Notes under the pieces: generated by a model
The model's input: only the letters and a program-made list of their open reading frames with translations
The model's database searches: none
What the model was told of the DNA's origin: nothing
Position numbers and translations under genes: made by a program
Part shown: in pieces, positions 12,601-59,803 of the stretch
Layout of the letters: every line of letters begins with the position of its first letter
Position numbering within the stretch: the first letter of the stretch is position 1
Origin: Escarpia spicata
Taxonomy: Eukaryota; Annelida; Polychaeta; Sabellida; Siboglinidae
Reading direction: 5' to 3'
Length of the DNA: 64,000 nucleotides
Assembly (NCBI GenBank): GCA_963995525.1
Contig: OZ023205.1
Location: 60,264,609-60,328,608 of the forward strand

Positions 12601-15600
12601 ATCTCCCCCAACACGTGAAGGTTGGCAGCAACATCTCCCCCAACACGTGAAGGTTGGCAGCAACATCTCCCCCAACACGTGAAGGTTGGCAGCAACATCT
12701 CCCCCAACACGTGAAGGTTGGCAGCAACATCTCCCCAACACGTGAAGGTTGGCAGCAACATCTCCCCCAACACGTGAAGGTTGGCAGCAACATCTCCCCC
12801 AACACGTGGAGGTTGGCAGCAACATCTCCCCCAACACGTGAAGGTTGGCAGCAACATCTCCCCCAACACGTGAAGGTTGGCAACATCTCCCCAACACGTG
12901 AAGGTTGGCAGCAACATCTCCCCCAACACGTGAAGGTTGGCAGCAACATCTTCCCCAACACGTGAAGGTAGGCAGCAACATCTCCCCCAACACGTGAAGG
13001 TTGGCAGCAACATCTCCCCCAACACGTGAAGGTTGGCAGCAACATCTCCCCCAACACATGGAGGTTGGCAGCAACATCTTCCCCAACACGTGAAGGTTGG
13101 CAGCAACATCTCCCCCAACACGTGAAGGTTGGCAGCAACATCTCCCCCAACACGTGAAGGTTGGCAGCAACATCTCCCCAACACGTGAAGGTTGGCAGCA
13201 ACATCTCCCCCAACACATGAATGTTGACAGCAACATCTCCCCCAACACGTGGAGGTTGGCAGCAACATCTCCCCCAACATGTGGAGGTTGGCAGCAACAT
13301 CTCCCCCAACACGTGGAGGTTGGCAGCAACATCTCCCCCAACACGTGAAGGTTGGCAGCAACATCTCCCCCAATACGTGAAGGTTGGCAGCAACATCTCC
13401 CCCAACATCATCACAACTACCGGGGCACCTCAAGGATGTGTTGGGAGCTCCAGTCTATACTCACTGTACACCAATGACTTAAGGAGCGAATGTGACTCTA
13501 ATGTCTTGATTATATACTCAGATGACGCAGCAGTAGTGGCGTGCCTGAACAGATCAGATTTGTTCCACGCATATGAGAACACTGTGTCCGTGATCTCAAT
13601 GTGGTGCAAGAACAACTTTATAGAACTAAATCAGTAAATGTGCGCAAGGCAAAGGAACTCTGCTTTGAATTCCGCACCAGTGGCCAGTTTGATGGACCGC
13701 TCCTTATTGATGGTGAGGCAGTGGAGGTAATGGACACCTTTAAGTATCTTGGTGTAACACTTGACAACAAACTGACGTTTGGCCCTCATGCTAAAGGTGT
13801 GCAAAAAAGTACCAGTCTTAGTCTTACAACTTAACTTTACCTTGTCTCTTAGTTTTACTATTTATCCTTATCTCTTGCAACTTACCCGTGCCTTGCCTCT
13901 TGTAACTTACCCCTGCCTAGCCTCTTGTAACTTACCCCTGCCTTGCCTCTTGTAACTTACCCCTATCTTACCTCTTGTAACTTACCCCTGCCTTGTCTCT
14001 AGTAACTTACCCCTGCCTTGTCTATTGTAACTTACCCCTGCCTTGCCTCTTGTAACTTACCCCTGCCTTGTCTCTTGTAACTTACCCATGCCTTGCCTCT
14101 TGTAACTTACCCCTGCCTTGTCTCTAGTAACTTACCCCTGCCTTGTCTCTTGTAACTTACCCCTGCCTTGTCTATTGTAACTTACCCCTGCCTTGCCTCT
14201 TGTAACTTACCCCTGCCTTGTCTATTGTAACTTACCCGTGCCTTGTCTTTTGTAACTTACCCGTGCCTTGTCTTTTTGTAACTTACCCCTGCCTTTTCTC
14301 TTGTAACTTACCCATGCCTTGCCGCTTGTAACTTACCCCTGCCGTGCCTCTTGTAACTTACCCCTGCCTTGCCTCTTGTAACTTACCCCTGCCTTACCTC
14401 TTGTAACTTACCCCTGCCTTGTCTCTAGTAACTTACCCCTGCCTTGTCTATTGTAACTTACCCCTGCCTTGCCTCTTGTAACTTACCCCTGCCTTGTCTC
14501 TAGTAACTTACCCCTGCCTTGTCTCTTGTAACTTACCCCTGCCTTGTCTATTGTAACTTACCCCTGCCTTGCCTCTTGTAACTTACCCCTGCCTTGTCTA
14601 TTGTAACTTACCCGTGCCTTGTCTTTTGTAACTTACCCCTGCCTAGCCTCTTGTAACTTACCCCTGCCTTGTCTATTGTAATTTACCCCTGCCTTGCCTC
14701 TTGTAACTTACCCCTGCCTTGTCTATTGTAACTTACCCCTGCCTTTTCTCTTGTAACTTACCCCTGACTAGCCTCTTGTAACTTACCCCTGCCGTGTATC
14801 TTGTAACATATCCCTGCCTTGCCTCTTGTAACTTACCCCTGCCTTGCCTCTTGTAACTTACCCCTGCCTTGTCTCTAATAACTTACCCCTGCCTTGCTTC
14901 TTGTAACATACCCCTGCTTTGCCTCTTGTAAATTACCCCTGCCTTGCCTCTTGTAATTTACCCCTGCCTTGTCTCTAGTAACTTACCCCTGCCTTGCCTC
15001 TTGTAACTTACCCCTGCCTTGCCTCTTGTAACTTACCCATGCTTTGTCTCTAGTACCTTACCCCTGCCTTGTCTCTTGTAACTTACCCCTGTCCTGTCTA
15101 TTGTAATTTACCCCAGCCTTGCCTCTTGTAACTTACCCCTGCCTTGTCTCTTGTAACTTACCCCTGCCTTGCCTCTTATAAAGTACCCCTGCCTTGTCTG
15201 TTGTAACTTACCCCTGCCTAGCCTCTTGTAACTTACCCCTGCCTTGCCTCTTGTAAGTTGAATTGTAACTTACCCCTGCCTTGTCTGTTGTAACTTACCC
15301 CTGCCTTGCCTCTTATAAATTACCCCTGCCTTGCCTCTTGTAACTTACCCCTGCCTTGCCGCTTGCACTGGTCATCGAGCTGGTAGTTGGCGGTACGCAG
15401 CTCATGGAGCTGGTTCTACAAACAAAGAAGAATAATCTAAAACAGATTGTTCACAATAATAATAAGCTTCTATAGCATCTATGTCCAGAGCAAGGGACCG
15501 CCGAAAGTTGGGGTTGGAAAGTGATTTCAAATAAATCAGTCTTTAGTTTTTTTTTTACAAAAAGTAGAGCTCTATAGCTCTATGAGATGATAATAAAGTG

Positions 15601-18600: not shown

Positions 18601-19630
18601 ACCAACGTTGAGTTGACGTATCGTAGATTACGAGGAGACATTATCAATGTTTATAAATACTTGTATGGCATATTTACTTACACGCACACTATGTTTAATC
18701 TGGACTTGTACATAGGAACAAACGGGCATTCTTTAAAATTGTATAAAAAAGGAGTAAACGAGAACTAAGCCTAGACTACGGAAACACTTCTTTAGCGAGA
18801 GAGTAACTGGTCCTCATAAAACAAAAAACAATGAAAACCCATGACATCGGGTATGACCTTCCCTACTACCGTACACAGTACAGGAAGATGTCATTTTTCC
18901 TGTGCACAATAGCTGAATGAAACAGCCTGCCCCAAGAAGTGGAATCTGCGACCACACTGGATTCTTTTGAGTCCAGGCCCCAGCACCACCTGTGAATCTT
19001 ATATAATATAAACCTCCCATCCCCTTCCCCCCTTCTACATCCCCAACCCCCACTAAATCGCACCACCGCATTTCTTCTCTCTTTCCTGATACCAATGATT
19101 ACCCCCACCCCCAAAATCTTCAACCTAAATGAAGGTGGTCATAACAAAAAAGAAGAAGATATATGGAACACCTTACCCGAAGCCATTGCCAATCCCAATG
19201 GCATTGGCATTGATTGAAATTGTGACTGTCATAGCTCCAACTGTCAATGCACTGAAGAACCGACGTGATATATTATGGATGCACCAACCTGTCAAATTCG
19301 ATTACAAAGACCGAAGAGGATGTATGTATATGGGATACCCATGTTGGCATGTACATCACTATATGTCATACAGCGTCAGGCTCAAACACCTTACACTACA
19401 CTGCAGTTCTGATAAATTTATACAACTCCCAAGGCACAGCGAAGGCCATTCCATTTTTAGCGTGACACACGACGATTTTTGAAGACGGAACACTATCGTT
19501 TCTCATCACTACCTTTATACCACGTTACATTAGTAATTAAGCGCGTATATATCTACAACAACTGATGCAGCTAACTGTTTTAGATTACCTGCATCCGAAG
19601 AAACTCCTCATCTGACAGAGACGACGCCAT
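576..19630 (-). CDS. GRIPAP1 (GRASP-1), 5' part of gene, seven exons, continues beyond left edge
   Basis: GRIP1-associated protein 1 is a long cytoplasmic coiled-coil protein. In vertebrates it is a Rab4 effector that couples early and recycling endosomes and helps AMPA-receptor recycling. Exons 1-6, joined through GT-AG introns with matching phases, follow the N-terminus of that family: [22 protein letters not shown], then [53 protein letters not shown] and [16 protein letters not shown]. Charged heptad-like residues fit a coiled coil. The coding exons present total about 586 nt (roughly 195 residues); the family is usually 800 residues or more, so most of the gene lies to the left. Start: the ATG at 19630 opens the exon with the conserved LSDEEF motif. 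It is head to head with ALG12. Its introns carry LINEs, MITEs and minisatellites. Confidence 0.9.
854..1264. mobile_element. MITE-like element with terminal inverted repeats
   Basis: The ends form an imperfect inverted repeat of about 27 bp: TGACCTGCCACAGCGAAGTG at 854 faces its reverse complement ending at 1264. The inner part next to the right end is one inverted copy of the 79-bp unit amplified at 3650-5590, and 854-1010 matches the reverse complement of about 5800-5946. It therefore belongs to the same family as the 3646-5946 element but lies in the opposite orientation. No coding capacity seen. Confidence 0.7.
1265..2022. other. GRIPAP1 intron 6, no recognised feature
   Basis: AT-rich, mostly unique-looking sequence between the MITE and exon 6. 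I see no gene, RNA or clear repeat. Confidence 0.6.
2023..2212 (-). CDS. GRIPAP1 exon 6
   Basis: 190 nt, TTGTAG acceptor and ATCAG|GTATGT donor. Reads [20 protein letters not shown], then [16 protein letters not shown] in phase, and exits in phase 1. The coiled-coil LQAENxALQKN motif agrees with GRIPAP1. Confidence 0.88.
2213..3645. other. GRIPAP1 intron 5 (left part), no recognised feature
   Basis: AT-rich intronic DNA. Short open frames on the minus strand (for example 2704-2886 and 3242-3457) have no recognisable motifs and are probably chance. Confidence 0.6.
3646..5946. mobile_element. Large MITE-like element whose interior is a 79-bp tandem array
   Basis: Left end starts ACTGCCACAGTGAACTGGG (3651) and right end finishes as an imperfect inverted copy, ACTTAGTTGTGGCAGGTGA (5928-5946). 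The right 120 bp match, inverted, the left part of the 854-1264 element. In the small element the internal unit occurs once; here it occurs about 25 times, which accounts for the size difference. Probably a non-autonomous DNA transposon; superfamily not identified. Confidence 0.65.
3650..5590. repeat. 79-bp minisatellite, about 24-25 copies
   Basis: Each unit carries GCCACAGTGAACTGGGTATG, CACAGGTCTATTCTGCACA and GAGCCAAAAATAGCTGTCTA, followed by GGTCATGTGACC. Copies differ by point changes and shared variant pairs (CTGTCTAG versus GTGGTCTAG, GTCGCAC versus TCCCAC) that recur in blocks, as expected from unequal exchange. Confidence 0.93.
6263..6370 (-). CDS. GRIPAP1 exon 5
   Basis: 108 nt, 36 residues, phase 0 on both sides, TTTACAG acceptor and GGACAG|GTGGG donor. 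It encodes [20 protein letters not shown] and continues [10 protein letters not shown], the most strongly conserved stretch of the fragment. Confidence 0.92.
6771..7215. repeat. 58-bp minisatellite, about 7 copies
   Basis: Repeats of a CTGTGAACATTGTCTGTACT block followed by GCTAGAAAGTACAGTAGAGG and TTCACTATTAAGGTCACC. The last copies are truncated. Lies in GRIPAP1 intron 4. Confidence 0.9.
7216..7989. other. GRIPAP1 intron 4, nothing recognised
   Basis: Two overlapping minus-strand open frames at 7625-7919 have no recognisable domain. No other structure seen. Confidence 0.5.
7990..8535. repeat. Four diverged tandem copies of a roughly 140-bp unit
   Basis: Each copy has GATTxAATCAAxTACAGATT, TTGTGTATAGTGGCA, then GAGAAAAAGTTACTG and TTTTGGGGGCC. 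The copies differ by small indels and are older-looking than the other arrays. Possibly the body of an unrecognised mobile element. Confidence 0.75.
8536..10243. other. GRIPAP1 intron 4 (right part), no gene seen
   Basis: AT-rich intronic sequence up to micro-exon 4. Open frames near 9457-10013 lack motifs. Nothing further supported. Confidence 0.5.
10244..10270 (-). CDS. GRIPAP1 exon 4 (27-nt micro-exon)
   Basis: ALNKSKKAK, flanked by ATTTGTAG and AAAG|GTAGG. Phase 0 on both sides. The residues match the conserved A-L-S-K-S-K-K segment of the family, directly between exons 3 and 5. Confidence 0.85.
10988..11049 (-). CDS. GRIPAP1 exon 3
   Basis: 62-nt exon, CTTGTAG acceptor and AACAAG|GTAACT donor. 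With the phase-1 G from exon 2 it encodes [17 protein letters not shown] followed by KANK, and ends in phase 0. Confidence 0.88.
11140..13835 (+). mobile_element. Non-LTR retrotransposon fragment (RT domain) split by a minisatellite
   Basis: Plus-strand remnants of a LINE reverse transcriptase, antisense to GRIPAP1. Left of the array: [13 protein letters not shown] and [19 protein letters not shown], then a [15 protein letters not shown] segment (11170-11495). Right of the array: [31 protein letters not shown] (the YxDD catalytic box as YSDD) and [10 protein letters not shown] (13410-13790). Stop codons and frame changes are present, and both LINE ends are missing, so it is dead. The order of motifs is that of the non-LTR RT fingers, palm and thumb. 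Confidence 0.88.
11493..13408. repeat. 32-bp minisatellite inside the LINE RT coding region, about 60 copies
   Basis: Unit reads ACACGTGAAGGTTGGCAGCA then ACATCTCCCCCA, with rare 31-bp copies (one C fewer) and a G/T variant in ACGTG/ACTTG. The unit corresponds to the codons [11 protein letters not shown] of the RT, between the FLSNRPQ and TGAPQG motifs. At 32 bp it shifts frame in each copy, which creates very long open frames on both strands that are not genes. Confidence 0.95.
13815..15348 (-). repeat. 25-bp minisatellite made of the GRIPAP1 exon 2 donor site, about 61 copies
   Basis: On the minus (gene) strand each unit is AGGCAAGGCAGGG|GTAAGT followed by TACAAG-type bases: the last 12-13 bases of exon 2 plus the first 12 of the intron. 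The unit next to the exon is the real junction at 15349. Most copies keep GTAAGT intact; scattered variants change one or two bases. The intron therefore contains dozens of near-perfect U1-type donor sequences in tandem. Confidence 0.95.
15349..15415 (-). CDS. GRIPAP1 exon 2, its donor is the source of a minisatellite
   Basis: 67-nt exon between a TTTGTAG acceptor and an AGGG|GTAAGT donor. It encodes [17 protein letters not shown] and then KRQGR, leaving phase 1, which matches exon 3. Its last 12 bases and the first 12 bases of the following intron form the 25-bp unit repeated through 13815-15348, so the exon runs directly into the array. Confidence 0.9.
15416..16924. other. GRIPAP1 intron 1, right of exon 2
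   Basis: Contains the 46-bp array at 15785-16060 and otherwise no gene. A minus-strand poly-purine/pyrimidine stretch and short open frames (16217-16450) carry no recognised motif. Confidence 0.5.
15785..16060. repeat. 46-bp minisatellite, about 6 copies
   Basis: Nearly identical copies of TGTGTACTGTGCGGTAGACT, GGGAGGGTGTCAGAGTGGCC and GACAGA. The low divergence suggests recent expansion. Confidence 0.92.
16925..19140 (+). mobile_element. Second non-LTR retrotransposon remnant (RT C-terminal half and 3' end)
   Basis: Plus-strand, antisense to GRIPAP1. It reads [19 protein letters not shown] then FVDDTKIY (catalytic box as VDD) and [20 protein letters not shown] residues up to 17462. After an insertion it continues with [26 protein letters not shown] and an [14 protein letters not shown] tail to about 18990. 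This motif order is that of CR1/L2-type LINEs. Many frameshifts and stops, so it is a fossil. A second fragment of the same 3' region lies inverted at 44325-44425. Confidence 0.8.
17466..18341. mobile_element. Roughly 0.87-kb insertion into the LINE, probable DNA transposon
   Basis: The LINE reading stops at 17462 and resumes at about 18342, so the bases between were inserted. The ends are imperfectly inverted: AGGCGAACGACTTATCACTC at the left and, on the other strand, AGGCGAGTAATCACTC at the right, flanked by A-rich bases on both sides (possible target duplication). Inner sequences near both ends share TTAGCACxAGCG. No transposase recognised. Confidence 0.5.
19589..19630 (-). CDS. GRIPAP1 exon 1
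   Basis: ATG at 19630-19628 encodes [14 protein letters not shown] and ends at a CAG|GTAATC donor, phase 0. The [10 protein letters not shown] motif is typical of the GRIPAP1 N-terminus. Confidence 0.9.
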
Positions 19631-20154
19631 GTTTGTTTTTGTTTGAGAACGAGGCTTTCATGTTGGCTTGGAACAGTTGCGTGTTCTAAAAGCATATTTT
19701 ATATGTTTAACTAGTTAATAGTTAATACATTTCCTTGCTGCAGTACATGTGATTAAGCGTAAGCTAACTATGGGTTGATTCTTCGATGATTGTTTTCAAC
19801 TAGATTTTAATTTGTTTTAGGAAGTAACATAAATGTCTTATTATCGCCCAAGCCGGGGGAAGGCACATCTTCACCGTCACGTCAGCCTAAGCCTTAGGCT
19901 TAGCCTAGCCTAGGCCGCCAGATCACTATTTCCCTTCCGCGACCAGGGATTTTATATAATTGTAGTCGACGAGTGTAGACGTCTAAGCATAAATCGGATT
20001 GTCAATTATACCGTCATTAAAAGTAGAACGTTTCGCTTTTGAAAAGTTTGTGTTTGGCATTGGTTCCAGTTGTAGATGTAGTCTGTAGTCAAAGCCACAT
20101 AGGACCATGCCCATGCCATGGCATGTTCATGGTTTGTTTCGTGTTGCTTTCAGC
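19631..20154. promoter_or_regulatory. Shared intergenic region between GRIPAP1 and ALG12, likely bidirectional promoter
   Basis: The start codons at 19630 (minus) and 20155 (plus) are about 525 bp apart in divergent orientation, so both 5' UTRs and promoters must fit here unless a further 5' exon lies elsewhere. A GCTTTCAG just before the ALG12 ATG could be an acceptor for a 5' UTR exon. A near-palindrome around 19887-19915 (CTAAGCCTTAGGCTTAG) sits in the middle. Function inferred from position only. Confidence 0.6.
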
Positions 20155-20289
20155 ATGGCATTGCTGGACAACTGTATGTACCTCGTCATGTTGAGCCATC
20201 TCTTTGTCTGTCCATACACCAAAGTAGAAGAAAGCTTCAACTTACAAGCAATGCATGACATCTTGTACCATCGATTCAACATTTCACAG
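20155..20289 (+). CDS. ALG12 exon 1
   Basis: 45 codons from [22 protein letters not shown] (membrane anchor) then [13 protein letters not shown], ending NISQ at a CACAG|GTTTGT donor, phase 0. Confidence 0.9.
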
Positions 20290-23200
20290 GTTTGTCTATG
20301 TAGCTTCATAGTTCTTCCATGCAGATCTACATTGATTCCTTACTTGTTCCATGTAAAGCTAGGCTGAATATTTCACTCGTGCATTCATCACATACCCTTG
20401 CCATATGTACCTGATGTAGGTGGTTCATTTTTATTTTATAATCTGTTTTTACAGGAAATGTGCACATCTGACTGATCTGAGGAACCTGGTTAGGCCATCA
20501 TGTGACATAAATTGATTTATTGTGCTGTTTGGCACAATACATTGACCACTAATTATACAGCAGGATATTTAGTGTACAAGATCTTGCTAAAAAAATTCAA
20601 AACATTTGGTAAAACTAGGATTTTATCAGAATTCTGCATTCAATACATTTCCCAATGTATATAATACCACAAAGCTGCAATGGAAAATCTGCCATATTGT
20701 TACTAATTTGCGACTGAAATGGTTTCATGTGTGAATCATGAGACCCATGACATGACTTGAACTATGAGTCATGAGACACATGACTTGAATCATGAGAGCT
20801 GTGACATGACTTGAACCATGAGATCCATGACATGACTTGAACCATGACTATGAGATCGATGACATGACTTGAATCATAAGATACATGACCTGACTTGAAC
20901 CATGGGACCCATGACTTGAACTGTGAGATCCATGATATGACATGACTAGAACCATGAAACACATGACAGCTTGAACTATGAGACCTGTGACATGAACTGG
21001 CCATGGTACCCATGGCATGACTTGAACCATTAGTCACATGAGATAACTTGAACCGTGAGACCCATGACATTTCTTAAAACATGAGATACATGCCATGACT
21101 TGTGTATGTTGTTGACATGAAGACGTCATCATCTGCTTTTGTCTGTTATATGTCCGTTTTATTTTCAGTATGATCACCTAGTGTTTCCAGGAGTAGTGCC
21201 GAGAACTTTCATAGGTCCATTACTGGTTTCGGCCATTGCGTCTCCCTTCGTTTCTTTAGCTAACATGGCTAATCTGACTAAATTTGTCAGCCAATACATA
21301 GGTACGTATACCATAATAATATTCTGAATCTATTCTTGTGCTATACATTTGCCTTTAATTATCAAATATTTGTATTGACATGACTGAAAGGAAGAATTCT
21401 GAGCTTCAGTTCCTTGCAACAAAAAGTTCATGCCAGCTTACTAATAGTATTAAAATATAATAATATGTGATCCAATCACTGATTCATGTTGACATGTTGA
21501 CATGTAGCCCGTTATATTTTCATATTAATGCAATTTATTTATTTTGTATTTTCGTAGTAACAAACGCTTTTCAAAACGTTTAGTATTCTGATCAATTTAC
21601 AAGAACCACTTTGTATTGCAATAATAAAATTAAACGTGAAGTTATTGTTTCAGTGTGCATGCTGTGATGGGTTGCATGGTATTGTGGACATTGTTTCAGT
21701 GTTTGCTGTGATGGGTTGCATGGTATTGTGGACATTGTTTCAGTGTTTGCAGTGATGGATTGTGTGGTATTGTGGACATTGTTTCAGTGTTTGCTGTGAT
21801 GGATTGTGTGGTATTGTGGACATTGTTTCAGTGTTTGCTGTGATGGATTGTGTGGTATTGTGGACATTGTTTCAGTGTTTGCTGTTATGGATTGTGTGGT
21901 ATTGTGGACATTGTTTCAGTGTTTGCTGTGATGGATTGTGTGGTATTGTGGACATTGTTTCAGTGTTTGCTGTGATGGATTGTGTGGTCTTGTGGACATT
22001 GTTTCAGTGTTTGCTGTGATGGATTGTGTGGTCTTGTGGACATTGTTTCAGTGTTTGCTGTGATGGATTGTGTGGTATTGTGGACATTGTTTCAGTGTTT
22101 GCTGTGATGGATTGTGTGGTATTGTGGACATTGTTTCAGTGTTTGCTGTGATGGATTGTGTGGTATTGTGGACATTGTTTCAGTGTTTGCTGTGATGGAT
22201 TGTGTGGTCTTGTGGACATTGTTTCAGTGTTTGCTGTGATGGATTGTGTGGTCTTGTGGACATTGTTTCAGTGTTTGCTGTGATGGATTGTGTGGTCTTG
22301 TGGACATTGTTTCAGTGCATGCTGTGATGGATTGTGTGGTCTTGTGGACATTGTTTTAGTGCATGCTGTGATGGGTTGCGTGGTGTCATGGACATTGTTT
22401 CAGTGCATGCTGTGATGGGTTGTGTAGTGTCGTGGACATTGTTTCAGTGTGCGTGCTGTGATGGGTTGCATGGTGTTCTGGACATTGTTTCAGTGTTTGC
22501 TGTGATGGGTTGCGTGGTGTCATCGTCATTGTTTCAGTGCGTGTTGTGATGGGTTGCGTGGTGTCATGGTCATTGTTTCAATGTGTGCTGTGATGGGTTG
22601 TGTAGTGTCGTGGACATTGTTTCAGTGTGCGTGCTGTGATGGGTTGCATGATGTTGTGGACATTGTTTCAGTGCGTGCTGTGATGGGTTGCGTGGTGTCA
22701 TGGACATTGTTTCAGTGCGTGCTATGATGGGTTGTGTGATGTCATGGACATTGTTTCAGTGCATGCTGTGATGGGTTGTGTGATGTCATGGACATTGTTT
22801 CGGTGCGTGCTGTGATGGGTTGCATGGTGTTGTGGACATTGTTTCAGTGCGTGCTGTGATGGGTTGCGTGGTGTCATGGTCATTGTTTCAGTGCATGCTG
22901 TGATGGGTTGCGTGGTGTCATGGACATTGTTTCAGTGCGTGCTGTGATGGGTTGCATGGTGTTCTGGACATTGTTTCAGTGTTTGCTGTGATGGGTTGCG
23001 TGGTGTCATCGTCATTGTTTCAGTGCGTGTTGTGATGGGTTGCGTGGTGTCATGGTCATTGTTTCAATGTGTGCTGTGATGGGTTGTGTGATGTCATGGA
23101 CATTGTTTCGGTGCGTGCTGTGATGGGTTGCGTGGTGTTGTGGACATTGTTTCAGTGCATGCTGTGATGGGTTGCATGATGTTGTGGACATTGTTTCAGT

Positions 23201-26200: not shown

Positions 26201-29200
26201 GGGTTGCATGGTGTTGTGGACATTGTTTCAGTGCGTGCTGTGATGGGTTGCATGGTGTCATGGACATTGTTTCAGTGCATGCTGTGATGGGTTGTGTGAT
26301 GTCATGGACATTGTTTCAGTGCATGCTGTGATGGGTTGCGTGGTGTCATGGACATTGTTTCAGTGCATGCTGTGATGGGTTGCGTGGTGTCGTGGACATT
26401 GTTTCAGTGTGCGTGCTGTGATGGGTTGCATGGTGTTCTGGACATTGTTTCAGTGCATGCTGTGATGGTTTGCGTGGTGTCATCGTCATTGTTTCAATGT
26501 GTGCTGTGATGGGTTGCGTGGTGTCATGGTCATTGTTTCAGTGCGTGCTGTGATGGGTTGCGTGGTGTCATGGTCATTGTTTCATTGTTTGCTGTGATGG
26601 GTTGCGTGGTATCATGGACATTGTTTCAGTGCATGCTGTGATGGGTTGTGTGGTCTTGTGGACATTGTTTCAGTGCGTGCTGTGATGGGTTGCGTGGTGT
26701 TGTGGACATTGTTTCAGTGCATGCTGTGATGGGTTGCATGGTGTTGTGGACATTGTTTCAGTGCGTGCTGTGATGGGTTGCGTGGTGTTGTGGACATTGT
26801 TTCAGTGCATGCTGTGATGGGTTGCATGGTGTTGTGGACATTGTTTCAGTGCTTGCTGTGATGGGTTGTGTGATGTCATGGACATTATTTCAGTGCATGC
26901 TATGATGGGTTGTGTGATGTCATGGACATTATTTCAGTGCATGCTGATGGGTTGTGTGATGTCATGGACATTATTTCAGTGCATGCTATGATGGGTTGTG
27001 TGATGTCATGGACATTGTTTCGGTGCGTGCTGTGATGGGTTGTGTGATGTCATGGACGTTGTTTCAGTGCGTGCTGTGATGGATTGTGTGATGTCATGGA
27101 CATTGTTTCAGTGCAAGCTGTGATGGGTTGTGTGATGTCATGGACATTGTTTCAGTGCGTGCTGTGATGGATTGTGTGATGTCATGGACATTGTTTCAGT
27201 GCATGCTGTGATGGTTTGTGTGATGTCGTGGACGTTGTTTCAGTGCGTGCTGTGATGGATTGTGTGATGTCATGGACATTGTTTTAGTGCGTGCTGTGAA
27301 GGGTTCTGTGATGTCATGGACATTGTTTCAGTGTGTGCTGTGATGGGTTGTGTGATGTCATGGACATTGTTTCAGTGCATGCTGTGTGCTGTGAAGGGTT
27401 GTGTGATGTCATGGACATTGTTTCAATGTGTGCTGTGATGGGTTGCATGGTGTCATGGACATTGTTTCGGTGGTGCTGTGATGGGTTGCGTGGTGTCATG
27501 GACATTGTTTCAGTGCATGCTGTGATGGGTTGCATGGTGTTGTGGACATTGTTTCAGTGCGTGCTGTGATGGGTTGTGTGGTGTTCTGGACATTGTTTCA
27601 GTGCATGCTGTGATGGGTTGCGTGGTGTCATCGTCATTGTTTCAATGTGTGCTGTGATGGGTTGTGTGATGTTACGGACATTGTTTCAATGTGTGCTGTG
27701 ATGGGTTGTGTGATGTCATGGACGTTGTTTCAATGTGTGCTGTGATGGGTTGTGTGATGTCATGGACGTTGTTTCAATGTGTGCTGTGATGGATTGTGTG
27801 ATGTCATGGACATTGTTTCAGTGCGTGCTGTGATGGATTGTGTGATGTCATGGACATTGTTTCAGTGCGTGCTGTGATGGGTTGTGTGATGTCATGGACA
27901 TTGTTTCAGTTCGTGCTGTGATGGGTTGTGTGATGTCATGGACATTGTTTCAATGTGTGCTGTGATGGGTTGTGTGATGTCATGGACATTGTTTCAGTGC
28001 GTGCTGTGATGGGTTGTGTGATGTTATGGACATTGTTTCAGTGCGTGCTGTGATGGGTTGTGTGATGTTATGGACATTGTTTCAGTGCGTGCTGTGATGG
28101 TATGTGTGATGTTATGGACGTTGTTTCAATGTGTGCTGTGATGGGTTGTGTGATGTCATGGATGTTGTTTCAGTGCGTGCTGTGATGGGTTGTGTGATGT
28201 TATGGACATTGTTTCAGTGCGTGCTGTGATGGGTTGTGTGATGTCATGGACATTGTTTCAATGTGTGCTGTGATGGGCTGTGTGATGTCATGGACATTGT
28301 TTCAGTGCGTGCTGTGATGGGTTGTGTGATGTTATGGACGTTGTTTCAATGTGTGCTGTGATGGGTTGTGTGATGTCATGGACATTGTTTCAGTGCGTGC
28401 TGTGATGGGTTGTGTGATGTCATGGACATTGTTTCAGTGCGTGCTGTGATGGGTTGTGTGATGTTATGGACATTGTTTCAGTGCGTGCTGTGATGGGTTG
28501 TGTGATGTCATGGACATTGTTTCAATGTGTGATGTGATGGGTTGTGTGATGTCATGGACATTGTTTCAGTGCGTGCTGTGATGGGTTGTGTGATGTCATG
28601 GACATTGTTTCAGTGTGTGCTGTGATGGGTTGTGTGATGTTATGGACATTGTTTCAATGTGTGCTGTGATGGGTTGTGTGATGTCATGGACATTGTTTCA
28701 GTGCGTGCTGTGATGGATTGTGTGATGTCGTGGACATTGTTTCAGTGCGTGCTGTGATGATGGGTTGTGTGATGTCATGGACATTGTTTCAGTGCGTGCT
28801 GTTATGGGTTGTGTGATGTCATGGACGTTGTTTCAATGTGTGCTGTGATGGGTTGTGTGATGTCATGGACATTGTTTCAGTGCGTGCTGTGATGGGTTGT
28901 GTGATGTTATGGACATTGTTTCAGTGCGTGCTGTGATGGGTTGTGTGATGTCATGGACGTTGTTTCAATGTGTGCTGTGATGGGTTGTGTGATGTCATGG
29001 ACATTGTTTCAGTGCGTGCTGTGATGGGTTGTGTGATGTCATGGACATTGTTTCAGTGCGTTCTGTGATGGATTGTGTGATGTCATGGACATTGTTTCAG
29101 TGCGTGCTGTGATGGATTGTGTGATGTCGTGGACATTGTTTCAGTGCGTGCTGTGATGGGTTGTGTGATGTCATGGACATTGTTTCAGTGCGTGCTGTGA

Positions 29201-32200
29201 TGGGTTGTGTGATGTCATGGATGTTGTTTCAGTGCATGCTGTGATGGTTTGTGTGATGTCATGGACATTGTTTCAGTGCGTGCTGTGATGGGTTGTGTGA
29301 TGTTATGGACATTGTTTCAGTGCATGCTGTGATGGGTTGTGTGATGTTATGGACATTGTTTCAATGTGTGCTGTGATGGGTTGTGTTATGTTATGGACGT
29401 TGTTTCAATGTGTGCTGTGATGGGTTGTGTGATGTCATGGACATTGTTTCAGTGCATGCTGTGATGGGTTGTGTTATGTTATGGACGTTGTTTCAGTGCG
29501 TGCTGTGATGGGTTGTGTGATGTCATGGACATTGTTTCAGTGCATGCTGTGATGGGTTGTGTGATGTCATGGACATTGTTTCAGTGCGTGCTGTGATGGA
29601 TTGTGTGATGTCATGGACATTGTTTCAGTGCGTGCCATGATGGGTTGTGTGATGTCATGGACATTGTTTCAGTGCATGCTGTGATGGGTTGTGTGATGTC
29701 ATGGACATTGTTTCAGTGCGTGCTGTGATGGATTGTGTGATGTCATGGACATTGTTTCAGTGCGTGCCATGATGGGTTGTGTGATGTCATGGACATTGTT
29801 TCAGTGCATGCTGTGATGGGTTGTGTTATGTTATGGACATTGTTTCAGTGCGTGCTGTGATGGGTTGTGTGATGTCATGGACGTTGTTTCAGTGCGTGCT
29901 GTGATGGGTTGCGTGGTGTTGTGGACCTTCCTGCAGTACAAGAAGACTGTGTCCCGTGTCTTCAGACCTAGTGTCGGCCGCTGGCTGTTGTTGATCACTG
30001 CTTCGCAATTCCATTTCTTCTTCTACATGAGTCGGCCATTACCAAACATCTTTGCCTTGGCCCTAGGTTAGTTCACTTTGTGTTAATTCTCTCTTTGAAT
30101 CAATCATTTTCAAACATTTGTGTTGGCTCTAGGTAGTTAACTGTGTATTAATTTTGTAATTGAGGAAGCCACTGCCAAACATATTTGCCTTGGCTGTAGG
30201 TCGCTTCACTTTGTTTTCATTCTCACATTGAGTGAGCCACTGCCAAACATATTTGCCTTGGATCTAGGTCACGTCACTTTGTATTAATTCTCTCATTGAG
30301 CGAGCCACTGCCAACCATATTTGCCTTGCCTTAGGTCACTTTCTTTTGTATTAATTCTCTCATTGAGCGAGCCACTGTCAAACATATTTGCCTTGCCTTA
30401 GGTCACTTTATTTTGTATAATTCTCACATTGAGTGAGCCACTGCCAAACAGATCTGCCTTGGTCCCTGGATAGTTCTCGTTGTATTACCGTATTATCGCC
30501 TATAGACACGCACTGCCTAATAGACACACACACCCCTTTTACACAAGTTAAACCACCCATGAAAACTGATTTTTAGTAATCAATGTGCACTTTGAAAATG
30601 CAAAATATGGTAATAATACCGTTGCTGGCACCACCTTGTGGATACCGTCTAGATAACAATTCATTGCATTTTTTTCTATAAGGTATCACCACATTTATAA
30701 TTTTAGTGACTTGTTTTATTCGCGACGTCAGGCATGTTGTAATAATCACGAAAACCTTCCTAACAGTGCAGAAGAAGAGTTGAAATTACGTGATATTCAC
30801 AATCGCATAGCCATCTGTAGGCATGAGGAAGGGTCAAAACAACGAAGCGCGCTCCGATGTCTAACTTGACACTTTCGAGAATCGCCCCACTCACAGTAGC
30901 CGGGTTGGCCTTGCCCCGTTGCATCACAAAGCACCCGGGTTTGGATTATTTGATTCAGTACAGACAGAGTTTTATCCTGCAACGTTCAATGATGTCTTCT
31001 GGCTAGCGTGATGATTGACAGTTTTGTACTGCTCAATGATGTCTTCTGGCCAGCATGATGATTGACAGTTTAGTACTGCTCAATGATGTCTCCTGGCCAT
31101 CTTGATGATTGACAGTTTAGTACTGCTCAATGATGTCTCCTGGCCAGCGTGATGATTGACAGTTTTGTACTGCTCAATGGTGTCTTCTGGCCAGCATGAT
31201 GATTGACAGTTTAGTACTGCTCAATGATGTCTCCTGGCCAGCGTGATGATTGACAGTTTTGTACTGCTCAATGATGTCTCCTGGTCAGCGTGATGATTGA
31301 CAGTTTAGTACTGCTCAATGATGTCTTCTGGCCAGCATGATGATTGACAGTTTAGTACTGCTCAATGATGTCTCCTGGCCAGCGTGATGATTGACAGTTT
31401 AGTACTGCTCAATGATGTCTCCTGGCCAGCGTGATGATTGACAGTTTAGTACTGCTCAATGATGTCTCCTGGCCAGCGTGATGATTGACAGTTTTATACT
31501 GCTCAATGGTGTCTTCTGGCCAGTATGATGATTGACAGTTTAGTACTGCTCAATGATGTCTCCTGGCCAGCGTGATGATTGACAGTTTTGTACTGCTCAA
31601 TGATGTCTCCTGGCCAGCGTGATGATTGACAGTTTAGTACTGCTCAATGATGTCTCCTGGCCAGCGTGATGATTGACAGTTTAGTACTGCTCAATGGTGT
31701 CTTCTGGCCAGCGTGATGATTGACAGTTTAGTACTGCTCAATGATGTCTTCTGGCCAGCGTTATGATTGACAGTTTAGTACTGCTCAATGTGTCGATCTG
31801 GCGTTTGTCCGAACTCCGGAGTTATAAAACCGCAAGTATTGCTGTCAGTAGCTGTCTGTCATGAGTGGCGCGTCGAGTACCATCTTCTGTCGACCGAGCG
31901 CTAGATGTTTTCGTGGATGTGCTTGTTCTGTCTTTACTACGTGTTGCCTATAGTTTCACATGCGTGACGTGTATGCAATTTGTGCAATCGTCCACCGCTG
32001 ACAGCTTGTGCTATGCATGTCTTATCTTAAATCAATAGACGCGCACTCAAGCCCTTGCACTAACGCAGCGCCCATTTTTGGGGATAATAAGGTAATTCTC
32101 ACACTTTCGGCTGCCTTATTCCATGTAGTTGATGGTCATGATCATTCATTAAATTTTTTGATTGGTACTTGTTAGCAATATGACGTTACATAGCATCTTG

Positions 32201-35200
32201 AAGGAGAACAGGAGACTGTTGTTTGCAGTGATGCTGGCCATGCGAAGTTACCTGGCTGGACAGTACCGGGCGTTCATCTGGTGGTCAGCCGGTTCCATCT
32301 TGCTCTTCCGTGCCGAGCTGGCTCTCCTAATGGGTTTGCTCCTGCTGATAGCACTTGGCACGCACCGACTCTCTCTCCTCTCCAGTCTCACTGCGGCGGT
32401 ACCGGCTGGCATCGTCTGTCTGGGTAGGTCACATGGTCTCACTGGTAGGGATGGGGGCCAGATCATATTTGTTTAGCCCAGGTTGTTCATATTCATTATG
32501 TGTATGCTTGTTTGACTGAGATTCAGATTTCCAAATATTTGTTTTAATTTAGATTTACATACGATGTGTTTATCCAATTTGAACTGCTTTTTTTCCAATT
32601 CTGTGGCTGTAGTGACTTTAATAATATCTACTGATTTTTATTTCTCTTAATTCAGTTCACATTTGAACAGTAATAATTCTTTTCCAGGTTTTAATACTAA
32701 CTTTAATCTGAATACTAAGTACGTAGAACTAAACCCATAGCTGTAATATTGGCATAACATTAACATCATATTTCAAAAAGTAGCTTCACTGTGCTGGTTG
32801 TTTTGTATATTATGCAGGCGTCACTGTGCTGATTGTTGTGTATTTGCAGGTGTCACTGTGCTGATTGTTGTGTATTTGCAGGTGTCACTGTGCTGATTGT
32901 TGTGTATTTGCAGGCGTCACTGTGCTGATTGTTGTGTATTTGCAGGTGTCACTGTGCTGGTTGTGTATTTGCAAGCGTCACTGTGCTGATTGTTGTGTAT
33001 TTGCAGGTGTCACTGTGCTGATTGTTGTATATTTGCAGATGTCACTGTGCTGATTGTTGTGTATTTGCAGGTGTCACTGTGCTGATTGTTGTGTATTTGC
33101 AGGTGTCACTGTGCTGGTTGTGTATTTGCAGGCGTCACTGTGCTGATTGTTGTGTATTTGCAGGTGTCACTGTGCTGGTTGTGTATTGGCAAGCGTCACT
33201 GTGCTGATTGTTGTATATTTGCAGGTGTCACTGCTGATTGTTGTGTATTTGCAGGTATCACTGTGCTGATTGTTGTGTATTTGCAGGCGTCACTGTGCTG
33301 ATTGTTGTGTATTTGCAGGTGTCACTGTGCTGGTTGTGTATTTGCAGGCGTCACTGTGCTGATTGTTGTATATTTGCAGGTGTCACTGTGCTGATTGCTG
33401 TGTATTTGCAGGTGTCACTGTGCTGATTGTTGTGTATTTGCAGGCGTCACTGTGCTGATTGTTGTGTATTTGCAGGCGTCACTGTGCTGATTGTTGTGTA
33501 TTTGCAGGCATCACTGTGCTGATTGTTGTGTATTTGCAGACGTTACTGTGCTGATTGTTGTGTATTTGCAGGCGTCACTGTGCTGATTGTTGTGTATTTG
33601 CAGGTGTCACTGTGCTGATTATTGTATATTTGCAGGCGTCACTGTGCTGATTGTTGTGTATTTGCAGGTGTCACTGTGCTGGTTGTGTATTTGCAGGCAT
33701 CACTGTGCTGATTGTTGTATATTTGCAGGTGTCACTGTGCTGATTGTTGTGTATTTGCAGGCGTCACTGTGCTGATTGTTGTATATTTGCAGGTGTCACT
33801 GTGGTGATTGTTGTGTATTTGCAGGTGTCACTGTGCTGATTGTTGTGTATTTGCAGGCGTCACTGTGCTGGTTGTTGTGTATTTGCAGGCGTCACTGTGC
33901 TGGTTGTGTATTTGCAGGCGTCACTGTGCTGATTGTTGTGTATGTGCAGGTGTCACTGTGCTGGTTGTGTATTTGCAGGCGTCACTGTGCTGATTGTTGT
34001 GTATTTGCAGGCATCACTGTGCTGGTTGTGGTTTTGCAGTTGTCACTGTGCTGATTGTTGTGTATTTGCAGAAGTCACTGTGCTGGTTGTTGTGTATTTG
34101 CAGGTGTCACTGTGCTGGTTGTGTATTTGCAGGTGTCACTGTGCTGATTGTTGTGTATTTGCAGGTGTCACTGTGCTGGTTGTTGTGTATTTGCAGGTGT
34201 CACTGTGCTGGTTGTGTATTTGCAGGCGTCACTGTGCTGGTTGTTGTGTATTTGCAGGTGTCACTGTGCTGGTTGTGTATTTGCAGGCATCACTGTGCTG
34301 GTTGTTGTGTATTTGCAGGTGTCACTGTGCTGGTTATGTATTTGCAGGTGTCACTGTGCTGGTTGTGTATTTGCAGGTGTCACTGTGCTGGTTGTGTATT
34401 TGCAGATGTCACTGTGCTGGTTGTGTATTTGCAGGTGTCACTGTGCTGGTTGTGTATTTGCAGGTGTCACTGTGCTGGTTGTGTATTTGCAGGCGTCACT
34501 GTGCTGATTGTTGTGTATTTGCAGAAGTCACTGTGCTGGTTGTTGTGTATTTGCAGGTGTCACTGTGCTGGTTGTGTATTTGCAGGTGTCACTGTGCTGG
34601 TTATATATTTGCAGGTGTCACTGTGCTGGTTGTGTATTTGCAGGTGTCACTGTGCTGGTTGTTGTGTATTTGCAGGTGTCACTGTGCTGGTTGTGTATTT
34701 GCAGGCGTCACTGTGCTGGTTGTGTATTTGCAGGCGTCATTGTGCTGGTTGTGTATTTGCAGGTGTCACTGTGCTGGTTGTGTATTTGCAGGTGTCACTG
34801 TGCTGGTTGTGTATTTGCAGGCGTCATTGTGTTGGTTGTGTATTTGCAGGTGTCACTGTGCTGGTTGTGTATTTGCAGGTGTCATTGTGCTGGTTGTGTA
34901 TTTGCAGGTGTCACTGTGCTGGTTGTGTATTTGCAGGTGTCACTGTGCTGGTTGTGTATTTGCAGGTGTCACCGTGCTGGTTGTGTATTTGCAGGTGTCA
35001 CCGTGCTGGTTGTGTATTTGCAGGTGTCACTGTGCTGATTGTGTATTTGCAGGTGTCACTGTGCTGGTTGTGTATTTGCAGGTGTCACTGTGCTGGTTGT
35101 ATATTTGCAGGTGTCACTGTGCTGGTTGTTGTGTATTTGCAGGTGTCATTGTGCTGGTTGTGTATTTGCAGGCGTCACTGTGCTGGTTGTGTATTTGCAG

Positions 35201-38200
35201 GCGTCACTGTGCTGATTGTTGTGTATGTGCAGGTGTCACTGTGCTGGTTGTGGTTTTGCAGTTGTCACTGTGCTGATTGTTGTGTATTTGCAGAAGTCAC
35301 TGCTGGTTGTTGTGTATTTGCAGGTGTCACTGTGCTGGTTGTGTATTTGCAGGTGTCACTGTGCTGGTTGTTGTGTATTTGCAGGTGTCACTGTGCTGGT
35401 TGTGTATTTGCAGGCGTCACTGTGCTGGTTGTGTATTTGCAGGCATCACTGTGCTGGTTGTTGTGTATTTGCAGGTGTCACTGTGCTGGTTATGTATTTG
35501 CAGGTGTCACTGTGCTGGTTGTGTATTTGCAGGTGTCACTGTGCTGGTTGTGTATTTGCAGATGTCACTATGCTGGTTGTGTATTTGCAGGTGTCACTGT
35601 GCTGGTTGTGTATTTGCAGGCGTCACTGCGCTGATTGTTGTGTATTTGCAGAAGTCACTGTGCTGGTTGTTGTGTATTTGCAGGTGCCACTGTGCTGGTT
35701 GTGTATTTGCAGGTGCCACTGTGCTGATTGTTGTGTATTTGCAGGTGTCACTGTGCTGGTTGTTGTGTATTTGCAGGTGTCAGTGTGCTGGTTGTGTATT
35801 TGCAGGCATCACTGTGCTGGTTGTTGTGTATTTGCAGGTGTTACTGTGCTGGTTATGTATTTGCAGGTGTCACTGTGCTGGTTGTGTATTTGCAGGTGTC
35901 ACTGTGCTGGTTGTGTATTTGCAGATGTCACTGTGCTGATTGTGTATTTGCAGGTGTCACTGTGCTGGTTGTGTATTTGCAGGCGTCACTGTGCTGGTTG
36001 TGTATTTGCAGGTGTCACTGTGCTGGTTATATATTTGCAGGTGTCACTGTGCTGGTTGTGTATTTGCAGGTGTCACTGTGCTGGTTGTTGTGTATTTGCA
36101 GGTGTCACTGTGCTGGTTGTGTATTTGCAGGCGTCACTGTGCTGGTTGTGTATTTGCAGGCGTCATTGTGCTGGTTGTGTATTTGCAGGTGTCACTGTGC
36201 TGGTTGTGTATTTGCAGGTGTCACTGTGCTGGTTGTGTATTTGCAGGTGTCACTGTGCTGGTTGTGTATTTGCAGGTGTCACTGTGCTGGTTGTGTATTT
36301 GCAGGTGTCACTGTGCTGGTTGTGTATTTGCAGGTGTCACTGTGCTGGTTGTGTATTTGCAGGTGTCACTGTGCTGGTTGTGTATTTGCAGGTGTCACTG
36401 TGCTGGTTGTGTATTTGCAGGTGTCACTGTGCTGGTTGTGTATTTGCAGGTGTCACTCTGCTGGTTGTGTATTTGCAGGTGTCACTGTGCTGGTTGTGTA
36501 TTTGCAGGTGTCACTGTGCTGGTTGTGTATTTGCAGGTGTCACTGTGCTGGTTGTGTATTTGCAGGTGTCACTGTGCTGGTTGTGTATTTGCAGGTGTCA
36601 CTGTGCTGGTTGTGTATTTGCAGGTGTCACTGTGCTGGTTGTGTATTTGCAGGTGTCACTGTGCTGGTTGTGTATTTGCAGGTGTCACTGTGCTGGTAGA
36701 CTCCTACTTCTGGAGGGTGTGGCTGTGGCCTGAGGGTCAGGTGCTATGGTACAACACGGTCCTCAACAAGAGCTCTAACTGGGGAATATCCTTGCGCAGA
36801 GGAAGACCACAACTACTAATGACAACTGCCAGAAAGACATTATTTATTAAAATGCCTGAAATGATTGATAACCATTCCACGATAATGTATCCTCTGTGGA
36901 CATCTTCAGTCAGAGTCTACATCATGTATGGCATCATGAGAGGCAGTTAAGAAAACGTAGCTTCAGCGTTGCTCTTGTGAGGAACGAGTTGTCATTTCAA
37001 TATTTTAACTTACTTTTAGCTATCCATCTTGTTTTAGTCAGTCAATTTATCATTGGTTGTGACGCCAGCTTCTTCTGGTAGTGCCGTTGTATTTTTGTTG
37101 AATCTGCATATTTGTGTTGATGTACATTTACAATACTCTAATCTACAATTGCACTTTCTGAAGCTTGAACAAAGATGAACTAAGAACCTTAACAGTTCGA
37201 CAAACAGCTCCGTTCTCATGGTACTTCACCTCCGTGATACCGCGAGCACTCGCGTCAAGTGTTGTGTTTGTGCCGTTCGCCGTACATGTGGACGGCAGGT
37301 GTGGCGCCCTCACCCTTGCAGCCCTCGGATTCGCAGGGCTCTACTCCTTCCTCCCTCACAAGGAGCTTCGGTTCATCATCTACATCTTCCCTGTCCTCAA
37401 CACTGCCGCTGCCCTTGTCTGCTCCCACATGTAAGTAGTCTGTCTCAACACTGCTCTGTGGTGGGTGTAAGCTTGTATAGAGAGGCGTCTATAAGTCTCC
37501 GTGGTGTGTGTAAGCTTGTATAGAGAGGCATCTATAAGTCTCTGTGGTGGGTGTAAGCTTGTATAGAGAAGCATCTGTAAATCTCTGTGGTGGGTGTAAG
37601 CTTGTATAGAGAAGCATCTGTAAATCTCTGTGGTGGGTGTAAGCTTGTATAGAGAAGCATCTGTAAATCTCTGTGGTGGGTGTAAGCTTGTATAGAGAGG
37701 CGTCTGTAAATCTCTGTGGTGGGTGTAAGCTTGTATAGAGAAGCGTCTGTAAATCTCTGTGGTGGGTGTAAGCTTGTATAGAGAGGCGTCTGTAAATCTC
37801 TGTGGTGGGTGTAAGCTTGTATAGAAAGGCGTCTGTAAATCTCTGTTGTGGGTGTAAGCTTGTCTAGAGAGGCTTCTGTAAATCTCCGTGGGTGGGTGTA
37901 AGCTTGTATAGAGAGGCGTCTGTAAATCTCTGTGGTGGGTGTAAGCTTGTATAGAGAGGCATCTGTAAATCTCTGTGGTGGGTGTAAGCTTGTATAGAGA
38001 GGCTTCTGTAAATCTCTGTGAGTGGGTGTAAGCTTGTATAGAGAGGCATCTGTAAATCTCTGTGGTGGGTGTAAGCTTGTATAGAGAGGTGTCTGTAAAT
38101 CTCCGTGGTGGATGTAAGCTTATATAGAGAGGTGTCTGTTAATCTCCGATTCTCCATGCTGTGTGTCTTAGGTGGACAATGAGAAGGAAGTCATGGGTTC

Positions 38201-59730: not shown

Positions 59731-59803
59731 GTCAAGGTCAGTGTCCGACTTTTGCGAAGGCCATCCTCTCAGGGTAGTCTGTATGAGTTTCTATAGAACA
59801 CAG

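Follow-up and report, generated by a model that had tools for sequence, protein, structure and literature searches.

The window, by which I mean the whole stretch of 64,000 nucleotides analysed, holds GRIPAP1 on the reverse strand and ALG12 on the forward strand (Table 1). The GRIPAP1 exons were located by tblastn with human GRIPAP1, and match its N-terminus; exon 2 is in a phase compatible with the exon 3 acceptor, ttgtag/AACTGGCC, reading KRQGRELATL (joined by eye; a slash marks splice junctions throughout). The nine exons of ALG12 splice in frame, and the protein aligns with five homologues, an alignment in which no insert was found at the array junctions described below. Its identity is 88% to Ridgeia and 84% to Lamellibrachia, both siboglinid annelids, and about 56% to Branchiostoma.

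Table 1. Exons of the two genes and tandem arrays, in window coordinates.
Feature	Position	Strand	Details
GRIPAP1 exon 1	19589..19630	-	tblastn
GRIPAP1 exon 2	15349..15415	-	tblastn; donor at 15349/15348, 15349 being the final exon base
GRIPAP1 exon 3	10988..11049	-	acceptor ttgtag/AA
ALG12 coding span	20155..43477	+	nine exons
ALG12 exon 1	20155-20289	+	
ALG12 exon 2	21169-21301	+	
ALG12 exon 3	29893..30066	+	from reading frame and homologues
ALG12 exon 4	32229-32423	+	
ALG12 exon 5	36682..36785	+	peptide ends ...NWG; end placed from alignment with Ridgeia (shift of one base)
ALG12 exon 6	37204-37430	+	
ALG12 exon 7	38172-38341	+	
ALG12 exon 8	39680-39755	+	
ALG12 exon 9	43240-43477	+	
Array A1	13815..15365	-	donor-type, 25-bp unit, 61 kept units; GRIPAP1 exon 2 donor
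Array A2	21644..29926	+	acceptor-type, 44-bp unit, 187 units; ALG12 exon 3 acceptor 29892/29893
Array A3	30028..30487	+	donor-type, 68-bp unit, 6 full and 1 partial; ALG12 exon 3 donor 30066/30067
Array A4	32785..36697	+	acceptor-type, 29-bp unit, 129 units; ALG12 exon 5 acceptor 36681/36682
ALG12 intron 3 array	30986..31794	+	47-bp unit
ALG12 intron 6 array	37454..38146	+	43-bp unit, starts 24 bp past donor

Four tandem arrays in these genes carry an exon-intron junction within the repeated unit. A first-pass annotation had reported them from the letters of the DNA, and TRF and cyclic alignment over the window recovered all four at those places. The A1 unit is GCAAGGCAGGG/gtaagttacaagag (exon/intron) and that of A4 is ttgtgtatttgcag/GTGTCACTGTGCTGG, while the A2 unit reads attgtttcag/TGCGTG... 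and the A3 unit ...CTAG/gt.... For A1, the TRF span is 13872-15365, the units farther out being degenerate. Mean unit identity to the consensus is 0.87 to 0.97 across the four arrays. As the annotation had proposed, the arrays abut the real exon: in all four the copy nearest the exon holds the real junction, this being the last unit in A2 and A4 and the first in A3. Donors and acceptors, and both strands, are likewise affected, and ALG12 exon 3 has an array at each end, the acceptor-type A2 on one side and the donor-type A3 on the other.

The further claim that every unit carries its splice signal did not hold. Among the non-real copies (hereafter decoys), GT or AG is kept in 57/60 for A1, 135/186 for A2, 5/5 for A3 and 126/128 for A4, leaving 3/60, 51/186, 0/5 and 2/128 that have lost it. 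When adjacent base pairs of the unit are ranked by conservation, the splice dinucleotide comes 5th of 24 in A1, 1st of 67 in A3 and 6th of 28 in A4, and the AG of A2 only 32nd of 43.

The first-pass annotation likened these arrays to the mirages of amphioxus, correctly so as regards structure, and left it as a question whether acceptor types belong among these. Mirages are minisatellites at exon-intron boundaries, described in Adh3 and the globin genes BflGb6 and BflGb9; in the globins both acceptor and donor types are reported, many but not all copies keep AG or GT, and splicing is reported to be undisturbed (PMC3087553). All these features of anatomy and signal retention are shared here: the units of the four window arrays, and of eight arrays sampled elsewhere in the genome (see below), span the boundary, and the window units are imperfect, fall within roughly 10 to 160 bp (25, 44, 68 and 29 bp) and in many copies retain the signal. 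The known range of mirages, which is no part of their structural definition, is the cephalochordates, whereas the host here is an annelid and not an amphioxus judging by ALG12 identity, and the occurrence is therefore presumably independent. These are thus mirage-type arrays in a siboglinid (vestimentiferan) annelid, a kind known from amphioxus in a phylum that is new for it. Scale also differs, since A2 extends over 8.3 kb with 187 copies and the BflGb6 haplotypes have 3 and 6 units, as does the presence of arrays at both ends of one exon; in amphioxus RNA and somatic instability were tested (PMC3087553), whereas the present comparison is made on one genome assembly.

The same anatomy is found at other genes. 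In a sample of 168 exon edges from the 1.06 Gb genome, in genes picked without regard to repeats (kinesin, TCP1, PF03901 and UCH), arrays cross 8 edges. Seven arrays from outside the window were decomposed into units, and all 52 of their decoys keep GT or AG, at a unit identity of 83 to 97%, although such copies are not independent of one another. Array size goes down to 2.1 copies in 97 bp (L052). Three other candidates were rejected as junction arrays: in L018 the homology (P 0.013) stops 8 bp before the junction, and L031 and L035 gave junction-homology P values of 0.10 and 0.99. Some arrays near edges are simple repeats. No array lay wholly within a coding exon match, among matches of at most 600 bp and excluding the UCH loci.

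With so many copies of a junction side by side, the cell apparently still has to single out one true splice site. Scored with a simple matrix, decoys equal or exceed the real site in 46/58 cases for A1, 131/184 for A2 and 119/128 for A4 (at the threshold used, A3 left no decoy context to score), and outside the window in 13/18 for L003, 5/5 for L013, 6/7 for L016, 9/10 for L075, 1/1 for L087 and 11/12 for L093. Decoys fall short of the real site in L080, where 1/7 scores as high, and in L052 (0/1). Since most scored decoys are equally strong, site strength cannot select the real site in the former arrays, and the choice must rest on position. Protein homology suggests that the exon-proximal copy is the one used, and the uninterrupted ALG12 homologues lend indirect support to regular splicing. 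One exon facing 187 similar acceptors, most decoys scoring equally, amounts to a natural experiment in which the rule of exon definition could be tested in vivo.

These are probably mirage-type arrays that arose by tandem duplication across junctions and have been tolerated. An accidental duplication across an exon-intron boundary would copy the exon end and splice signal together, and slippage or unequal exchange would expand the array. As long as a complete exon-proximal copy remained, selection would tolerate the result; the spliceosome would take that copy, which gives the shortest exon and would win under exon definition, and decoys would be mostly neutral. The first-pass annotation had offered two suggestions, and one of them, that the arrays are tolerated since the copy next to the exon remains functional, agrees with most observations. 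The lack of arrays inside coding exon matches is expected if only exon-sparing arrays survive, and the loss and low rank of AG in A2 are expected of unused sites. Array L092 apparently covers the CDS end of a ubiquitin protease gene rather than a splice site, which suggests that any array sparing the proximal copy is tolerated. Against neutral decoys, the dinucleotide is among the better-conserved pairs in A1, A3 and A4, and its retention in all 52 sampled decoys is higher than neutral decay might lead one to expect at their unit identity, with the reservation that copies are not independent. Nor does tolerance alone predict an excess of arrays at junctions.

Two alternatives turn on whether such an excess is real. 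Arrays occupy 12% of the sampled bases, and it is a real possibility, though not a probable one, that arrays this dense cross junctions by chance and that the excess in the sample is a fluctuation. Uniform founding predicts 0.89 crossings in the two genes of the window; for the sample the expectation is about 2. The statement that chance would not place four junction arrays here was to that extent overstated; four of the 16 intragenic arrays do nonetheless cross an exon edge (P 0.013, for 26 edges, some of those in GRIPAP1 approximate, in a window selected for junction arrays). Every gene-anchored null speaks against chance. Moving the edges into introns yields 2.4 to 2.5 crossings in place of the 8 in the sample (P about 0.002), and the frequency of arrays at 50-1000 bp predicts 1.2 to 1.6 (P at most 0.0002); a stricter first version of the count gave 6/158 edges (P 0.03, the weakest null), and restriction to arrays of three or more copies gave P 0.027. 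The gene-anchored excess is 2.4- to 6.5-fold depending on the null, with P from 0.03 to below 0.0001. In favour of chance, an annotation-free test of consensus-donor pairs, which number 395 genome-wide against 278 in a backwards control (one consensus donor), showed no excess when counted as distinct loci on C1-C3 (10-12 against 12-14 in the control, among the places listed). A process that amplifies junctions, the other suggestion of the first-pass annotation, is possible on the gene-anchored result and draws no support from these distinct loci.

Should the excess be real, exon-intron boundaries could in this lineage be hot spots where minisatellites arise, at about three or more times the frequency elsewhere in the intron, with a nucleosome edge, polymerase pausing, an R-loop or sequence skew as candidate features of the boundary. 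I consider this rather unlikely. Besides the sample excess over shifted edges and over the 50-1000 bp rate, it is favoured by the first 50 bp of the intron, where 4 to 8 first arrays lie and 1.5 to 2.5 are expected (P 0.004 to 0.07); two of these near-edge arrays gave clear results, L049 with homology spanning the junction and L066 with homology to within 2 bp of it. The sample is small, however, two of its P values are weaker, and the distinct consensus-donor loci are flat. An annotation-free search for splice signals covered 94 array units, those of the window among them; strong donors occur in 7.4% against 3.2% of control stretches and 4.0% of shuffles, a weak excess, while strong acceptors show none (3.2% against 7.1% of control stretches). 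Nor does the junction lie significantly near the middle of the unit, which would have pointed to a targeted process (P 0.12), and the simple repeats among near-edge arrays also weigh against a hot spot. A more inclusive statement may hold, and is put forward tentatively: that boundaries are birth hot spots in vestimentiferan tubeworms, genome-wide and independently of amphioxus, that about one in twenty exon edges of conserved genes carries an array of its own junction, and that splicing chooses by exon proximity among sites of equal strength.

It is very unlikely that the arrays are functional, with decoys that buffer, delay or regulate splicing or allow stepwise removal by recursive splicing: the 52/52 retention and the A4 unit, tttgcag/GTGTCA, with AG beside GT, would fit, but that GT is by eye a weak donor, A2 loses AG freely with below-average conservation of the pair, and unit length is a multiple of three in only 5/12 arrays, which gives no signal. 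Least credible of all is misassembly of the arrays or of their junction content, for although tandem stretches as long as 8.3 kb are difficult to assemble, and BflGb6 haplotype 1 is reported as aberrantly assembled in the amphioxus draft genome (PMC3087553), copies here carry many private variants, contigs reach 62 to 90 Mb, and unrelated genes show this anatomy too, in arrays down to the 97 bp of L052, which any read could span.

Junction arrays can be set beside several described systems. In lancelet PGBD5, imperfect tandem repeats of 60 and 108 bp include intron/exon boundaries, troponin C being cited as well, although copies are few (a 3 x 108 bp triplication) and the host is a chordate (PMC3902484). 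With an annelid and several unrelated genes added, an amphioxus oddity becomes a question about tandem duplication at animal gene boundaries. Rogers' idea that introns are gained when AG/GT proto-splice sites are duplicated in tandem (cited in PMC3087553) likewise involves a duplicated stretch that carries splice signals, whereas the copies here are decoys within an existing intron and no new intron is seen. Junction arrays thus bear on intron gain, and also on gene-prediction errors in such genomes. No array-bearing reading frame was apparent in relatives, judged by names, Pfam labels and coverage among the 120 of 143 matches listed for the array-plus-exon frame of ALG12 exon 5.

Long tandem arrays within an annelid intron are also described for earthworm metallothionein; they lie inside intron 1, and units with splice junctions form no part of the description drawn on here (PMC12783039). 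The array in ALG12 intron 6 was considered as a fifth junction array and rejected, its junction homology being not above that of shuffles (P 0.28). That in intron 3 is an ordinary intronic array and crosses no edge.

Reading of the sequence and in-frame joining of exons place ALG12 on the plus strand of the window, while the minus strand holds the 5' part of GRIPAP1; the GRIPAP1 exons were placed using the human GRIPAP1 N-terminus, and the join of exons 2 and 3 was judged by eye to be in phase. The ALG12 product matches proteins named Mannosyltransferase or ALG12, and among the 120 matches listed of 2442 the closest are from Ridgeia piscesae (Siboglinidae, Annelida; 88% identity) and Lamellibrachia satsuma (84%), with all others at or below 58%, Branchiostoma lanceolatum being at 56% (55% in the multi-protein alignment). 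In alignment with the Ridgeia, Lamellibrachia, Lingula, Branchiostoma and Owenia proteins, the array junctions fall without insert.

TRF returned 49 tandem-repeat rows in the window. Arrays were split into units by cyclic alignment, leaving out units less than 90% complete or less than 60% identical to the consensus. The first-pass annotation had described four arrays that carry an exon-intron junction and adjoin a real exon, and this is borne out by the cyclic alignment and the conserved-protein joins: in each of A1 to A4 (see table), the junction yielding the conserved protein lies in the exon-most unit. It had also placed the splice signal in every unit, which holds for most copies but not for all. 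Other than in the real copy, GT or AG is kept in 57 of 60 copies in A1, 135 of 186 in A2, all 5 in A3 and 126 of 128 in A4, and is thus lost from 3, 51, 0 and 2 copies, respectively. In A2 and A3, identity to the real unit does not fall off steadily with distance, and neither does it in A1, where the most distal tenth alone is lower (0.83); in A4 it peaks beside the exon (0.997) and is 0.92–0.98 farther out.

Arrays, exon edges and other features located in the window and in sampled gene loci (L-numbers)
Feature	Location	Strand	Units	Mean identity to consensus
A1, GRIPAP1 exon 2 donor array	window	-	61 x 25 bp	0.926
A2, ALG12 exon 3 acceptor array	window	+	187 x 44 bp	0.930
A3, ALG12 exon 3 donor array	window	+	6 x 68 bp, one partial	0.873
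A4, ALG12 exon 5 acceptor array	window	+	129 x 29 bp	0.972
ALG12 intron 5	window 36786-37203	+		
Retroelement integrase-domain frames and reverse transcriptase fragments	window 55672-56112, 58462-59790	-		
Retroelement integrase-domain frames and reverse transcriptase fragments	window 13221-13634, 62650-63066	+		
Donor edges crossed by an array	L003, L013, L016, L075			
Acceptor edges crossed by an array	L052, L080, L087, L093			
Array of a TCP1-family gene	L075, 4150-4996 of stitched block		11	
Array at a ubiquitin protease gene	L092, 1098-1513		7.9 x ~50 bp	

A duplication spanning a junction would leave one complete exon with its junction in place, the extra copies landing on the intron side, and the coding sequence would be unaltered provided that splicing holds to the exon-proximal copy. 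With simple splice matrices, the decoys (array copies of the junction other than the real, exon-most one) mostly score at least as high as the real site in 9 of 12 arrays, and therefore proximity, not strength, must decide the choice of site. Such a choice is what the established rule of exon definition would give, under which splice sites are paired across a short exon; ALG12 exon 3 measures 174 bp from its proximal acceptor and gains 44 bp with each copy upstream. I infer that exon definition is what selects the exon-proximal site.

Among pairs of adjacent bases in the unit, the splice pair ranks 5 of 24 in conservation in A1, 1 of 67 in A3 and 6 of 28 in A4, while the AG of A2 ranks 32 of 43, conserved less than most. 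Outside the window, GT or AG is kept in 52 of 52 decoys in seven decomposed arrays (L093 not among them). I read the decoys as being under no consistent selection, although the opposite case is arguable.

Exons elsewhere in the assembly (1,060,511,957 bases, 1097 contigs) were picked by domain family, not by presence of repeats: 9 of 12 PF03901 matches (the window's own included), 60 of 124 kinesin PF00225 matches, 31 of 46 TCP1 PF00118 matches, and 6 of 55 UCH matches selected by frame and length before their sequence was looked at, giving 94 loci and 296,983 bases. Exon edges were positioned by family match and splice matrix, and an edge was counted as crossed if an array extends at least 5 bp on both sides of it. 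The count excludes the locus of the window itself, six near-duplicate loci (five stitched blocks), a TCP1 match of a single frame on contig C974, matches longer than 600 bp and edges without a site scoring at least 4. Arrays cross 8 of 168 edges, the L075 donor having been hand-reset to its first copy; under a stricter rule, without this reset and the UCH loci, they cross 6 of 158. Among the exon matches checked, no array lies wholly within a coding exon.

Each null built on the sampled genes predicts fewer crossings than were counted. With the first-array rate at 50–1000 bp from an edge as the null, 1.2–1.6 are expected against the 8 found (P ≤ 0.0002), and with intron-shifted edges 2.44–2.51 (P = 0.0023), or 2.47 against 6 under the stricter rule (P = 0.03). 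Uniform founding per block gives 2.08 expected against 7 of 158 edges (P = 0.0056), 1.66 against 5 for arrays of at least 3 copies (P = 0.027) and 2.35 against 7 of 172 with near-duplicates retained (P = 0.010); the Poisson P values presuppose independence of arrays. In the window alone, which had been selected for this feature, 4 of 16 arrays cross an edge versus 0.89 expected (P = 0.013). Pairs of CAGGTAAGT donors 15–45 bases apart, searched for across the whole genome, lend no support to a junction excess: there are 395 matches versus 278 in the backwards control, totals driven mainly by a few long arrays, and among the places listed on contigs C1–C3 the distinct loci number 10–12 versus 12–14 in the control, depending on whether neighbouring copies are merged. 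This search would miss the donor arrays found here, since none of the 6 donor arrays carries the exact CAGGTAAGT consensus. In a signal scan of 94 array units, 7.4% hold donors scoring at least 9 (control stretches 3.2%, shuffles 4.0%) and 3.2% hold acceptors (control stretches 7.1%, shuffles 2.9%). It is possible that junctions are a hot spot of array birth.

This kind of array is already known from amphioxus. The first-pass annotation had pointed to the amphioxus mirages, minisatellites whose units span an exon-intron boundary, and the published text confirms them, acceptor type included: among the globins, the mirage of BflGb6 is of acceptor type, with 6 and 3 units, that of BflGb9 is of donor type, either boundary can carry mirages, and Adh3 and other amphioxus loci are cited (PMC3087553). 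PGBD5 has been added as a further case, with troponin C cited (PMC3902484). Passages of an earthworm study report minisatellites in introns and do not describe junction-containing units; those of the Ridgeia genome paper cover TRF and intron lengths, with no mention of splice junctions. Human tandem repeats (PMC2812944) and C. elegans intronic minisatellites in relation to splicing (PMC4039745) are further published subjects touching on repeats and gene structure. A limited search of the open-licence literature, by titles and abstract openings, recognised no mirage-like arrays outside cephalochordates, and novelty in print is tentative because the search was limited. As far as it goes, what is new here is that the host is an annelid, that arrays can be very long, that one exon has an array at either end and that such arrays recur at unrelated genes.

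Several sampled loci show further features. At L075, 3 of 5 units examined read acag|GTCATTGTGAGAGCCTTCAGGAAG..CACCAACCTA|gtaagt, such a copy looking like a 36-bp in-frame miniature exon. The L092 array seems to start in the C-terminal coding end of the ubiquitin protease and then runs downstream, and this appears to be another site where the proximal copy suffices. The array unit of L094, ...CTCTCTGACAG|TGGTGTAAGTTYGATGATGACA, encodes WCKFDDD, a partial fit to the prediction; I take this to be the next motif in USP7, the sampled exon (VFINPKGDG, by eye) presumably being the one preceding it. Two kinesin genes, L018 and L031, have related 50-bp arrays starting 28–30 bp past the donor, which may be older than the duplication of these genes. 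The same kinesin exon with a nearby 66-bp array occurs on four contigs (L017, L026, L027, L028), probably as haplotigs or recent copies.

Between 33776 and 36733 of the window, the A4 array is stop-free over long stretches in several frames; its open frames reach 546 codons and could misdirect gene finders. With the donor atatcctt and the branch-like motif ccttaac, ALG12 intron 5 resembles, by consensus motifs, a minor (U12-type) intron; its flanking exons join in frame at the length seen in Ridgeia only if the intron ends in AA (AT-AA). One of the retroelement fragments sits in GRIPAP1 intron 2, adjoining 32-bp and 25-bp arrays.
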